A stretch of DNA of 64,000 nt from Kribbella capetownensis (GTDB taxonomy: Bacteria > Actinomycetota > Actinomycetes > Propionibacteriales > Kribbellaceae). The stretch covers positions 1,860,001 to 1,924,000 of the forward strand of contig NZ_SJKD01000001.1 in the NCBI RefSeq assembly GCF_004331485.1. The letters are read 5' to 3'. Under the pieces are notes generated by a model. It was not told the DNA's origin. It searched no databases and saw nothing but the letters and a program-made list of their open reading frames with translations. This document shows, piece after piece, positions 922-5,462 of the stretch (position 1 is its first letter; every line of letters begins with the position of its first letter). Made by a program: the position numbers and the translations under genes.

Positions 922-3840
922 TCAGTCCAGCAGCCCGTCCCGCCGCGCGACCGCGGCCGCCTCGGTGCGCGACCGGACGCCCAGCTTGCCGAGGATGTTC
1001 GACACGTGCACGCTCACGGTCTTCTCGCTGATGTACAGCTCCCGGGCCAACTGCCGGTTCGTCCGCCCGTCGGCGACCAGCTTCAGTACCTCGGTCTCTC
1101 GCGCGGTCAGCGCACCGGAACCCAGTCCCGGACCGTCGACCCCGCCGAGTTCGTCCAGCAGCGGCTTCGACCCCAGCTCCCGGCCGACCTCCGCGGCCAG
1201 CGCCGCCTGCTCGTTCGCCTCGGCCACCCGGCCCGCCGCGCGGAGCGCAGCCGACAGCCGCACCCGCGACCACGCCTGCTCGAAGACGTACCCGTACCCG
1301 AAGGCGTCCATGGTCCGTCGCCACACGGCCACGTGCTCCTCCGGTGACGGCGGATCGATCCCGGTCAGCCACCGGAGCCGCTCCCACTCCGCCTCCAGCC
1401 GCGACAGCCAGGCCAGCCCTTCGACACCTATCAACCGGCCGGGCGGCAGCCCCTTCTCCACTGTCGCCTGTCCCGTCGCGAGCAGTTCGGAGCCTCGGGC
1501 AACGAGTTCCTCGGCCGCCGACGGCTCGCTCACCGCCCGGTGGCACAGTAGTTGCAGTCCGAGCGTGGTGAACCGGATCTGCGCCATGAACCACTCGGTC
1601 TGGAACACGTCCGCCAGCAGCGCGGACACATCCGCGATCAGCTTCTCCGCCTCGGCGACCTGGTCGAGCTGGCGGTAGGCGTCCACGGCCGGCTGCAGCC
1701 CGATGATCGGCAGCATGACGTCCAGGTCCCACCACTTCCGCATCCGCTCCAGCTCTTCCGCGACCGAGGTGTCCCCGCGGCCGCTCCGGACCGCGAAGTC
1801 CACCGCACGCAGCGCCGCCGCCGATGCGGCCGGAGTCCCCGAGTCCGTCCGGGCGGTGACCGTCGCGTCGTCCCATTCGCCCAGGACGAACTGCGTCAGC
1901 GCCAGCATCCGCCGGGCGTCGAACCCGTACGCCGCCCACTGCCGGCCAAGCTCACCGGCGCGCTCCGAGGCATGGACGAGCGCTGTCTTCGCCTCCTGCA
2001 GGTCGCCCTCCTCGTAGTACGTCGAACCGAGCAGGAACCGGCTCCGCACCTCCGCCGCCGCGTCACCGGTCAACTGCGCCCGGACGGCGGCCTCCTCCAA
2101 CTGCCTGGCCGCCGCGACCGGGTCACCGGCGCGGCGCCGGAGCTGGGCCAGCGTGATCCCGGCGTCGCCGGCGGCCGACTCCTGGCCGGCCTCGCGAGCG
2201 ATCTCGAGCGCCTTGTGCGCCCAGCGCTCCGCCTCCATCGGGCGGCCGAGCGCGTCGGACACCCGCGCGTACAACGAGGCGACCTGGGCCTTGAAGACGG
2301 TCGACGGCTCGTCGGACACCAGCTTGAGCGCCTGGGTGACGGCTTCGTTCGCCTCCTGGTCGTGGTCGATGATCAGCGCGATGTCCGCGAGCGGCAGCAG
2401 CAACTGAGCCCGCTGCAGCTTCGGCGCGTCCGGCGGCAGATCCACGAGCGCCTTGCGGAGCATCTTGAGCGCGCGCAGGTGCTGCGAGGACAGCGTGGCC
2501 GCCAGGGCGGTGTCGACGATCAGCCAGGTCTTGTCGATGGTGTTGTCCGGCGACGCGTTCGGGAACAGTTCCAGCGCCATCTCGTAGTGCTTCAGCGCCT
2601 CCTGCGGCGCGGCGACCGTGATGGCCTCCTGCCCGGCCCGGACGCGCGCCTCGAACGCGGTGGCGAGATCGTGCGACCGGGTGGCGTGCCCGGCGAGCTC
2701 GGCCGCCGTACCTGCGACGGTCTGGTCCTTCAGCGCCTGCACGTAGGCCGCATGCTGGCGGACTCGTTCGCCCGGCAGCAGGTCGTCGTACACGGCCTCG
2801 GCCAGCAGGGCGTGCCGGAAGTAGTAGCTCGCGTTCCCCGGTACGTCGATGATGTGGGCGTCGATGAGCTCGCGCAGGGCCTGGTCGAGCTCGCGATCGG
2901 GCAGGCCGGCGACGGTGGTGAGCAGCGTGTGTGGCACTCGGCGGCCGGCGACGGCGATCACGCGGGCGACCTGCCGGGCGTCGTCGGACAGCGGATCGAG
3001 CCGGACCAGCAGCAGATCGGCCAGATCGGGTGGTACGGCGTCGCCGTCACCCATCGAGGCCGCGGCCACCAACTCCTCGGTGAAGAACGCGTTCCCACCG
3101 GCCCGGTCGAGGATCCGGCGTACCTCGGCCTCCGAGAGCGGTTTGGAGACCAGCGAGTCCAGCAATGTGCGGGACTCGTCGGAGTCCAGGGGCGCCACGT
3201 TGACGCGGCGTACGCGCGGGTTCCGGGACCACTCGGCGATCGGGCGGCGCAGCGGGTGACGGCGGTGCAGATCGTCGCTGCGGTAGGACACCACCAGGGC
3301 CAGGCGCTGTGAGGTCAGCCGGGTGATGAGGAAGCCGATCAGGTCGCGGGTGGAGTCGTCGGCCCAGTGGGTGTCCTCGATGATCACCAGCAGCGGCTCA
3401 CTGGTGGACAGCGCGGTGAACGCGCCCAGGACGGCGTCGAACAGGGCGGCCCGGTCCAGCTGGCCCTCCTGGGGCACGGTCTGGGCGCCGATCAGACGGT
3501 GCGTGGGCAGAAGCCGGCCGATCGCCGGGAAGTTCGTCAGGACGCTCTCGACCAGCTCCGGCCGCTCGCCGGCCAGCCGGCCGAACATCTCGGTGAACGG
3601 CAGGTACGGCAGGCCGGCGTCGCCGAAGTCGGTGCAGTGCCCGACCAGGACGCCGAAACCGCGCTCGTGGGCCCCGGTGGCCACTTCGTCCAGCAGGCGG
3701 GTCTTCCCTACCCCCGCATCACCGGACAGCACAACGGCGCCGGCGCGGCGCGTGCGGGCGTCGTCGACGGCACTGAGGAGGGCGGCCATCTCGGTCGAGC
3801 GGCCGACGAGAGGTGTCGAGGTCCAGGGCACATCGTCCAT
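922..3840 (-). CDS. LuxR-family (LAL-type) ATPase transcriptional regulator
   Basis: This 972-residue protein has the layout of large ATP-binding LuxR regulators. Near the N terminus is a Walker A motif (GDAGVGKT, about residues 40-47) and a Walker B motif ([11 protein letters not shown], about 151-161). A long helical TPR-like middle follows. The last 65 residues are a LuxR DNA-binding domain ([18 protein letters not shown], then [13 protein letters not shown]). An upstream start at 3957 is possible, but a strong terminator hairpin lies between it and the ATG at 3840, and AGGGGCGAAG precedes 3840, so the shorter form is preferred. Three tiny paralogous genes lie immediately upstream on the same strand and are candidates for functional partners. 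The regulated targets are unknown. Confidence 0.88.
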
Positions 3841-3906
3841 CTTCGCCCCTGGAGCCGACACAAATCGACGGCATCCCGTCCGCTGACCCTCCCGGGCAAC
3901 GAAAAC

Positions 3907-3942
3907 GCCGTCCCTGACCGGTTCTGTCGGGTCAGGGACGGC
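3907..3942 (-). terminator. Rho-independent terminator after the small-protein genes
   Basis: Perfect 13-bp arms (3907-3919 and 3930-3942, GCCGTCCCTGACC and its complement) enclose a 10-base loop. On the minus strand the hairpin is followed by GTTTTC. It ends transcription of the three small genes about 65 bases before the LuxR regulator start and argues that the regulator has its own transcript and starts at 3840. Confidence 0.8.
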
Positions 3943-3953
3943 GGTCCCGGCCG

Positions 3954-4115
3954 TCATGCCGCCGTAGTGGGTCGGAGGGTCCGGCGCGCGTGCCGCGGCT
4001 CGGGCTGGTGCGCCCGCTCCGCGTGCTCCCGGCGCGTCGCCGTCCGGAACTCACGCTTGGTCCGCTCCAGCTTGTAGGCGGTCTCCGCCTGGATCGTCTG
4101 AGGTGTGATGAACAT
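3954..4115 (-). CDS. Small basic protein, paralogue 1 of 3
   Basis: The 53-residue protein starts at an ATG with GGGAGG six bases upstream. Its N terminus ([18 protein letters not shown], then TKREF) matches the two genes upstream at a shared pattern: aromatic residue 2, then (Q/K)AE(T/V)xY(K/R)xxR, and a basic residue followed by (D/E)F. The C-terminal half is Arg/His/Pro-rich and unlike the other copies. It begins 13 bases after the stop of paralogue 2, so the two are co-transcribed, and a terminator follows directly. No known domain is recognised. Many actinomycetes carry such tiny genes beside LuxR-type regulators, but no function is established to my knowledge. Confidence 0.7.
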
Positions 4116-4128
4116 GGTCTGCCTCCCT

Positions 4129-4257
4129 TCAGGCTTTCCGGCCGAACAGGTGGACGAGGTTCCGGCGGGCCCGGGTGTTCCGGTGCTGCCGGAAGTCGCG
4201 GCTGAGGCGCTCCCTGCGGTAGGCGACCTCCGCCTTGACCGTTTCGTTGAAGTACAT
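4129..4257 (-). CDS. Small basic protein, paralogue 2 of 3
   Basis: A 42-residue protein (MYFNETVKAEVAYRRERL, then SRDF) with AGGAGG seven bases before the ATG. A longer in-frame reading from an ATG at 4329, itself preceded by GGGAGG, would add 24 residues. The shorter form is preferred because it aligns with both paralogues from residue 1. It is strongly basic (Arg-rich) after the conserved helix-like segment. Its leader contains a 64-base block that recurs before paralogue 3. Confidence 0.68.
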   Translation of the reverse strand: MYFNETVKAEVAYRRERLSRDFRQHRNTRARRNLVHLFGRKA

Positions 4258-4303
4258 GGATTCCTCCTGGTCTGGTGCCGGCTCCTGCCGACACCCCTCA
4301 ATC

Positions 4304-4367
4304 TGCTCGTCTGAGGTGACCCCGCACATCGGAGTTCCTCCCTATCCCTGCGCCTCAGGTGGCCTTA
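4304..4367 (-). promoter_or_regulatory. Conserved leader block upstream of paralogue 2
   Basis: Read on the minus strand, the block runs TAAGGCC, 15 bases, ATAGGGAG, 5 bases, CCGATGTG, 8 variable bases, then CCTCAGACGAGCA. The same words in the same order occur before paralogue 3 (4675-4737) with nearly equal spacing. Conservation of non-coding words argues for a shared promoter or operator, perhaps with a short leader ORF at the ATGTG. Confidence 0.55.
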
Positions 4368-4388
4368 GGCGGTCCTGGTACGGCGCAG

Positions 4389-4406
4389 GGGGTCCCTAGG
4401 GACCCC
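4389..4406. repeat. 18-bp perfect palindrome
   Basis: GGGGTCCCTAGGGACCCC reads the same on both strands. It lies between paralogues 3 and 2, just upstream of the conserved leader block, and is a candidate operator for a dimeric regulator. Confidence 0.5.
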
Positions 4407-4416
4407 GGAACGACGG

Positions 4417-4448
4417 TGCGGCCGGCTCCCCGGAGGGAACCGGCCGCA
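4417..4448 (-). terminator. Hairpin after paralogue 3 (no U-tract)
   Basis: Arms of 14 bases (4417-4430 and 4435-4448) pair with one mismatch around a 4-base loop. It lies 33 bases beyond the stop of paralogue 3. No T-run follows on the minus strand, so termination by this hairpin is plausible but unproven. Confidence 0.45.
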
Positions 4449-4480
4449 GGGACGGACGGGGGACGGCGGGTCTCTCGCGT

Positions 4481-4639
4481 TCACATCGCCGGACGGGCCC
4501 GCAGTTCGGGCGCGCAGGGCTCGGCAGGCTGCACCTTGTGCTTGCGCTGGAACCAGGACGGGCGCTGGAAGTCACGCCGCAGGCGGTTCTGTCGGTAACG
4601 GACTTCGGCCTGGAGCGAGTCTGGTGAGTAGAAGAACAT
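4481..4639 (-). CDS. Small basic protein, paralogue 3 of 3
   Basis: A 52-residue protein (MFFYSPDSLQAEVRYRQN, then RLRRDF) with GGAGGAG upstream of the ATG. It shares the AEV-x-Y-R-x-x-R-L-x-R-D-F core with paralogues 1 and 2, then diverges into a Trp/Lys/Pro-containing basic tail with one cysteine. It is separated from paralogue 2 by 223 bases holding a hairpin, a palindrome and the repeated leader block, so it probably has its own transcript. Confidence 0.68.
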   Translation of the reverse strand: MFFYSPDSLQAEVRYRQNRLRRDFQRPSWFQRKHKVQPAEPCAPELRARPAM

Positions 4640-4674
4640 TGATCTCCTCCGGGAGCTTGTCGATGAGGAGAGAG

Positions 4675-4760
4675 TGCTCGCCTGAGGGGGAGGGCCACAT
4701 CGGCACAACTCCCTATGCCCGGGCGATCCAGGCCTTACAGAGGCTTACAGAGCCTTAGAA
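4675..4760 (-). promoter_or_regulatory. Leader block of paralogue 3 with three 10-bp repeats
   Basis: Bases 4675-4737 repeat the leader block found at 4304-4367. Directly upstream, 4731-4760 is three 10-base units in line (ggccttacag, aggcttacag, agccttagaa). A 10-base period puts each unit on the same face of the helix, as expected for cooperative binding of one protein. The last units overlap the end of the GntR gene. Confidence 0.55.
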
Positions 4761-5462
4761 GCCGTAACTGAGGCTCAGCTCGAAGTGTTCGGGGTCCAGC
4801 AGGCAGTCGGCCTGCTCCGCGAAGGTGTCCGCCGCGGTCCAGCTGGTCCGCTCGGTGTGCAGGAACCAGGTCCCCTCGGGCCGGCCCAGCAGTGCGGCCT
4901 CGGCATGGTTCAACGGGCGGCCGCGGAGCCGTTGCTCACAGTGGTCGAGATGCAGTCCCGCCCGGCTCAGCGTCGTACTGATCGAGCCGTTGTCGAGGCC
5001 GCGGCCGGGCAGGTCGCGCAACGACTCCAGGGCCGGGATCCGGCTGCGCTCCAAGGAGATCGGGACACCGTCCGATAGTTGCCTGACCCGCTCGATCACG
5101 ATCACGTCGGGGTCGTCCAGCCCGAGCCGCCCGGCCAGGCCGGGATCCCGTTCGAGGGCGATCTTCACCGTCCGCATCCGGGTCTCCACGCCCTGCTCGG
5201 ACAGCGCGTGCGTCCAGCCGAGCCGGCCGTCCAGCGGCCGCCCGTCGAACAGCACGAACGATCCCTTGCCGGTCCGGGTGGCGATCAGACCGTCGTCGGT
5301 CAGTACGGCGAGCGCGGCGCGGACCGTGTTCCGGCTGACCGAGAACCGCCGGGCCAGTTCGACCTCAGCGGGCAGCCGCGCGCCCCGGCGTACCAGGCCG
5401 GAACGGATCTCCCGGGCCAGGACAGCCGCGACGCGTTCGTGCTTCAGCTCGATCCCGGGCAT
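4755..5462 (-). CDS. GntR-family (HutC/UTRA-type) transcriptional regulator
   Basis: The 235-residue protein has an N-terminal winged helix (about residues 8-72; LPAEVELARRFSVSRNTVRA is the recognition region) and a C-terminal UTRA-like ligand domain ending in the usual FAEQADCLLDPEHF-type segment. The ATG lies 7 bases after the stop of the hydrolase gene, so it is the last gene of a permease-hydrolase-regulator operon. It probably controls this operon in response to the transported compound or a derivative; the ligand is not evident. A longer reading from 5576 overlaps the hydrolase and is rejected. Confidence 0.88.
   Translation of the reverse strand: MPGIELKHERVAAVLAREIRSGLVRRGARLPAEVELARRFSVSRNTVRAALAVLTDDGLIATRTGKGSFVLFDGRPLDGRLGWTHALSEQGVETRMRTVKIALERDPGLAGRLGLDDPDVIVIERVRQLSDGVPISLERSRIPALESLRDLPGRGLDNGSISTTLSRAGLHLDHCEQRLRGRPLNHAEAALLGRPEGTWFLHTERTSWTAADTFAEQADCLLDPEHFELSLSYGF

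Follow-up and report, generated by a model that had tools for sequence, protein, structure and literature searches.

The window analysed here, a 64,000-nucleotide stretch of the Kribbella capetownensis genome, contains on its minus strand a GntR gene (4755–5462), followed downstream by three tiny genes, termed g3, g2, and g1, and then by a gene for a LuxR-type regulator, termed LAL. The features of the locus are as follows:

922–3831, minus strand: STAND/LuxR regulator (LAL), ∼969 aa, with AAA_16, TPR, and GerE HTH (Pfam; predicted fold STAND-TPR, MalT)
3829–3844, minus strand: predicted leaderless promoter, with −10 element GAAGAT (3844–3839) 7 nt before the regulator GTG (36 of 36 orthologues)
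3898–3943, minus strand: intrinsic terminator between g1 and the regulator, with a 14-bp stem, CGCCGTCCCTGACC/GGTCAGGGACGGCG, plus TTTTCGTT (inverted repeat I3)
3954–4115, minus strand: g1, tiny basic protein of 53 aa (ORF list, alignment, core profile; core pN/pS 0.41)
4129–4257, minus strand: g2, tiny basic protein of 42 aa, MYFNETVKAEVAYRRERLSRDF... (ORF list, alignment, core profile; core pN/pS 0.48)
4296–4350, minus strand: conserved promoter/leader core of g2-g1 (R1 match, E = 1.1e-10)
4353–4368, minus strand: boxes before g2, CTAAGG (4368–4363) and CTGAGG (4358–4353) (sequence)
4389–4406, no strand: perfect palindrome of 18 bp, GGGGTCCCTAGGGACCCC, lying past the g3 hairpin and before the g2 promoter (sequence)
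4417–4448, minus strand: terminator-like hairpin after g3, with a 14-bp stem (∼11 of 22 Kribbella loci have a comparable long stem at this place; weak T tail)
4481–4639, minus strand: g3, tiny basic protein of 52 aa, MFFYSPDSLQAEVRYRQNRLRRDF... (ORF list, alignment, core profile; core pN/pS 0.44)
4662–4722, minus strand: conserved promoter/leader core of g3, ATAGGG-N7-CCGATGTG-N8-CCTCAG-N3-AGCA (R1 match, E = 7.6e-12)
4733–4758, minus strand: three box-like hexamers before g3, CTAAGG (4758–4753), TAAGCC (4747–4742), and GTAAGG (4738–4733) (sequence; 10-nt direct repeat D7)

Alignment of the products of g1, g2, and g3 reveals a common core, AExxY(R/K)xxRxxR(D/E)F, in which A, E, Y, R, R, and F are invariant. 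The three small genes, with products of 53, 42, and 52 aa, are the paralogues with a common N-terminal pattern that an earlier note on this DNA had described, and each is preceded by GGAGG or GGGAGG, as expected from that note's claim of a strong Shine-Dalgarno sequence at every one. g1 lacks a leader of its own and starts 13 nt past g2. Structure prediction yields a single helix for the g2 protein, comprising residues 4–39. Inspection of all listed tiny-protein sequences revealed neither an export signal nor a hydrophobic stretch.

A 36-position protein profile identifies family members in 38 of 38 Kribbella genomes, and the copy number is three in almost all of them. For 17 codons of the core, pN/pS is 0.41–0.48 in frame versus 0.93–1.65 in shifted frames, supporting translation of the tiny ORFs; the core of the tiny genes is selected as protein. 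The value for full-length g2 is weaker (0.91), in part because synonymous sites in g2 vary little. The C-terminal tails are kept within each orthologue group: ...RARPAM in g3, ...HLFGRKA or HLFTRNV in g2, and ...LRPTTAA in g1. A fourth g1-like paralogue is present elsewhere in the same genome (L107, G000:C27:57661-57774), without a leader and not beside a LAL gene; the DNA upstream of it (GTGTCGGATC...TTCGTAG) looks like an ECF-type promoter and is found again at a second locus (L108). In another family of the same taxonomic order (L101–L104), a g1-like ORF (IFNPRLTPDLIEAEKAYRLERARRSF...) precedes a YCII-like gene; this ORF has no ATG start, and the region upstream of it is ECF-like.

The regulator is a LAL of the MalT type. 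In particular, its N-terminal segment is an AAA/STAND ATPase with a Walker A motif (Pfam AAA_16, E = 5.7e-29), in which GDAGVGKT is largely invariant across 16 LAL orthologues; its middle segment matches TPR_12 (E = 5.2e-9) and is all-helical in the predicted structure; and its C-terminal segment is a LuxR (GerE) HTH (residues 911–965, E = 1.9e-20). The predicted structure has a mean pLDDT of 87.5 and matches PDB entries 6mfv (STAND-TPR) and 8bob (maltose regulator). No Pfam match to a SARP domain (OmpR-like HTH plus BTAD) was present in LAL. A NANNAT hexamer is located 6–7 nt before the GTG or ATG start in 36 of 36 distinct LAL orthologues, versus 6% of 172 control genes, indicating a leaderless LAL transcript. 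An upstream ATG of the LuxR ORF is overlapped by the g1 stop codon, and the true start is almost certainly the GTG at 3831.

The terminator between g1 and LAL comprises a perfect hairpin and a T run located 10–15 nt past the g1 stop codon. Its stem is at least 13 bp long in 26 of 28 Kribbella loci and contains paired changes, and a similar terminator is located between the tiny gene and LAL in Streptosporangium-like genomes.

The leader blocks of g3 and g2 align, with the words TAAGGCC, ATAGGGAG, CCGATGTG, and CCTCAG(A/G)CGAGCA in one order, bearing out the claim that two of the three genes have a leader block in common. Exact matches to ATAGGGAGN5CCGATGTG in the 8.8-Mb genome are these two blocks only, and the pair, ∼260–660 bp apart, recurs in nearly all 38 Kribbella genomes, indicating that the likeness is not due to chance. 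Upstream of ATAGGG in 121 filtered leaders, the hexamer CTRAGG was observed 119 times, versus 6.7 times in shuffled sequences. The positions at which it starts are clustered at −13, −23, −32, −43, and −54, and the step of 10–11 bp is as expected for a protein positioned on one face of the DNA; the three hexamers before g3 are spaced by ∼10 bp. The commonest spacing between CTRAGG and ATAGGG is 16–17 bp, which also fits a −35 element, so that a different factor, or an alternative sigma factor, could be what recognises the hexamer. The downstream CCTCAG is the same box in inverted orientation and can read CCTTAG where the upstream boxes read CTAAGG. From these properties, the block is best read as a promoter/operator rather than as an RNA leader. 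ATAGGG does not fit the TANNNT −10 pattern, which counts against the regulator–target model set out below, and the strong conservation past ATAGGG (CCGATGTG, CCTCAG, and GCA) is left unexplained by a simple activator model. The idea that CCGATGTG provides the start codon for a leaderless ORF upstream was rejected: the frame to the tiny gene is not kept, and a 2-nt shift in Micromonospora-like leaders also opposes it.

Beyond Kribbella, Nocardioides-like genomes contain one tiny gene (MFTTDSFLGAEIAYRQDRIRKDYG...) ∼50 nt upstream of the LAL orthologue, and its leader is similar. At the level of the class, the peptide profile alone matched 29 of 395 genomes, nearly all matches being directly before LAL, and the leaders of the class matches are mostly gap-free over 60 nt across families (gATAGGG-N7-CCGATGTG-N8-CCTCAG-N3-GCGCA-N3-T). 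A DNA-only scan with ATAGGRMN6CYGATGTSN8CCTCAG, using no protein information and one genome per species for 84,980 species, yielded at least 87 sites, from 80 of 96 matching stretches, against an estimated chance expectation of approximately two sites (257 billion bases, 19 specified bases). Among the 87 listed sites, 76 are directly upstream of a LAL orthologue of ∼980 aa and, among the remaining 11, 8 are truncated where the locus ends; counting only listed sites with enough flank, 76 of 79 precede a LAL orthologue, most of them with a tiny basic protein encoded between leader and LAL. A tiny protein visible to the profile is present at 67 of the 87. The genera represented among the listed sites include Kribbella, Nocardioides, Terrabacter, Terracoccus, Janibacter, Ornithinimicrobium, Intrasporangium, Pedococcus, Arsenicicoccus, Kineococcus, and Jatrophihabitans, and the LAL orthologues exhibit ∼45% identity over their length. 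Weaker leaders and more divergent tiny proteins (e.g. MFEYELHEIRSAEMIREADDYRRAR...) precede LALs in Streptosporangium-like and Streptomyces-like genomes, and a weaker version of the module is also present in Micromonospora-like genomes. In plasmid records, the leader pattern had no match and only three distant LALs were found. One leader-like match (L219, G529:C1, ∼2012–2440) is located before a WhiB-family gene that has a C-terminal RGRPRK and resembles WhiB7.

These results carry the claims of the earlier note further. Recurrence of the family beside LuxR-ATPase genes with the leader block, which the note had set as a test, was found across many actinobacterial families. Its view that a gene and its control region have been duplicated beside one regulator proved right, an independent case being a locus with two leader and tiny-gene units (L215). 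Its suggestion of an undescribed small-protein system is supported: neither the three tiny proteins nor their profile matched any entry in Pfam, NCBIfam, PADLOC, or PDB, and no description of the tiny-protein family, the promoter element, or the pairing with LAL was found in the open-access literature.

The same promoter is also located before an operon comprising an L-amino-acid ligase (ATP-grasp) gene and an MFS gene, or before an MFS gene alone, in the genome of the window and in eight other Kribbella genomes (L201–L209, among them L208, G000:C21:444800-450800). The ligase ORF has a tiny-protein N-terminus at two of these loci (L202 and L205); specifically, the L202 ligase starts with MFTTDSVKAEV, the start of a g2 protein, indicating that the promoter and the first codons moved together. 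The ligase/MFS loci fit a portable activation unit, and their gene content hints at a circuit that may govern export or peptide synthesis. A separate site, ATAGGGAGAAATCCCGAGGCG (L011, G000:C11:396593-396613), which is nearly palindromic, related to the ATAGGG core, and devoid of the downstream block, precedes an MFS transporter gene, with near-identical sites in most Kribbella genomes; ATAGGGAGAAWTCCCGA sites, located before an MFS gene in most of these genomes, lack that block and were not counted as part of the module.

The position of the tiny genes raises the question of whether they are leader peptides of an attenuator, whereby, as in whiB7- or tna-type systems, translation of the tiny ORF would decide if transcription continues past the terminator into LAL. 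The tiny ORF is directly before LAL in most genera, and the terminator past g1 is conserved in Kribbella. In every orthologue compared, however, a leaderless start signal precedes the regulator itself, and this separate start disfavours attenuation of LAL. The presence in Kribbella of both that promoter and the g1-LAL terminator makes it unlikely that the tiny ORFs are LAL leader peptides; moreover, the terminator belongs to the tiny genes themselves, the core is selected as protein, and inspection by eye of the g1-LAL spacer revealed no conserved antiterminator. Leader and tiny-gene units are also found kilobases from LAL (L220 and L230), and these units, together with the terminators and the two copies at L215, suggest that the tiny genes there are transcription units of their own. 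Attenuation is an unlikely reading. In lineages with terminators or separate units, the tiny genes look like independent transcription units, which argues against a pure leader-peptide role; in genera without the terminator, such as Nocardioides, read-through into LAL is possible.

The pairing of a small gene with a regulator whose predicted fold is STAND-TPR also recalls peptide signalling, in which the tiny proteins would be (pro)peptides sensed by the TPR region of LAL in an RRNPP-like manner, and in which paralogues alike at the N-terminus and different in their conserved C-termini would represent several signals. We regard this as improbable: the tiny proteins are strongly basic and have no signal peptide or hydrophobic stretch, what is conserved across genera is the N-terminal core and not a mature peptide at the C-terminus, and the HTH of LAL is of the C-terminal LuxR type. 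Control of tiny-ORF translation by a leader that is mainly a structured RNA, a riboswitch or a thermometer, would account for the very strong conservation past the presumed start region, and in some leaders (L118, L132, and L136) CCTCAG can pair with the Shine-Dalgarno region. Pairing in the leaders was, however, not significant against permuted partners (p = 0.067 and 0.085), the block has no match in Rfam, and the helical phasing of the upstream boxes is a property of DNA, so that we consider a structured RNA unlikely. Two candidate elements, a hairpin between CCTCAG and the Shine-Dalgarno region and a GGGC/GCCC dyad at ATAGGG, were rejected as weak and not significant against permuted partners.

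The reading that we favour, and consider probable, is a regulator–target module, in which LAL would activate an adjacent promoter whose products are tiny basic proteins of helical form. What was observed comprises the genes and their co-occurrence across the class, the promoter element and the phased boxes, the terminator, and a start signal of LAL that is separate; what the model adds by inference is that LAL binds the boxes, that it activates, and that the tiny proteins act on LAL or elsewhere. Specifically, LAL, with its STAND-type ATPase, TPR sensor, and LuxR DNA-binding domain, would be made from its own leaderless promoter, sense a signal, and switch on the neighbouring conserved promoter, binding the tandem CTRAGG boxes on one helix face, probably as an oligomer. 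The conserved promoter would drive one or more tiny basic proteins, each built from an AExxYRxER core and a basic tail that varies, and predicted to form one helix. Amplification of the target gene in Kribbella would have given two transcription units, g3 and g2-g1, each putatively closed by a hairpin. The tiny proteins most likely would act on gene control, either through feedback on LAL or on another component of the cell.

Protein partners control MalT, and the tiny protein may likewise be a partner of LAL, a dedicated cofactor that would adjust LAL activity by binding to its ATPase or TPR part, with several paralogues that differ in their tails tuning one regulator. We put this forward tentatively, as a possibility short of even likelihood.

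With LAL and other MalT-type STAND regulators, the regulator shares the AAA/STAND ATPase, the TPR region, the C-terminal GerE HTH, and a length of ∼970 aa; it differs in being coupled, across the class, to a dedicated promoter element and the gene for a tiny protein, a coupling of which no description was found for any LAL. The SARP-LAL PimR binds 7-mer repeats located 11 bp apart on one helix face (PMC5930380), so that the design of the boxes here, tandem short repeats with similar phasing, is known for a related type of regulator with a different repeat (CGGCAAG in PimR versus CTRAGG here); LAL here differs also in lacking a SARP domain and in having a tiny-protein gene as its presumed target. 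XRE-DUF397 pairs in Streptomyces likewise place a regulator gene beside a small-protein gene and are widespread in actinobacteria, but involve another regulator and another small protein, with the small gene downstream of the regulator (PMC10364602). RRNPP quorum-sensing pairs similarly place a small gene beside a TPR receptor (PMC10075063), but here there is no export signal and the regulator is a STAND ATPase with a C-terminal LuxR HTH.

If the tiny proteins are indeed cofactors of LAL, the pair would constitute a class-wide actinobacterial signalling module that went unnoticed because its genes have fewer than 80 codons. Actinobacteria, antibiotic producers among them, have many LAL regulators, few of them with a known signal or target. 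For one LAL orthologous group, the putative target promoter, nearly always adjoined by a gene for the protein product, is recognisable in dozens of genera from its sequence alone. Such a promoter would offer a direct route to the signal of these LALs, to their binding site, and to their output, and the tiny proteins add a widespread family that lies outside the coverage of family libraries.
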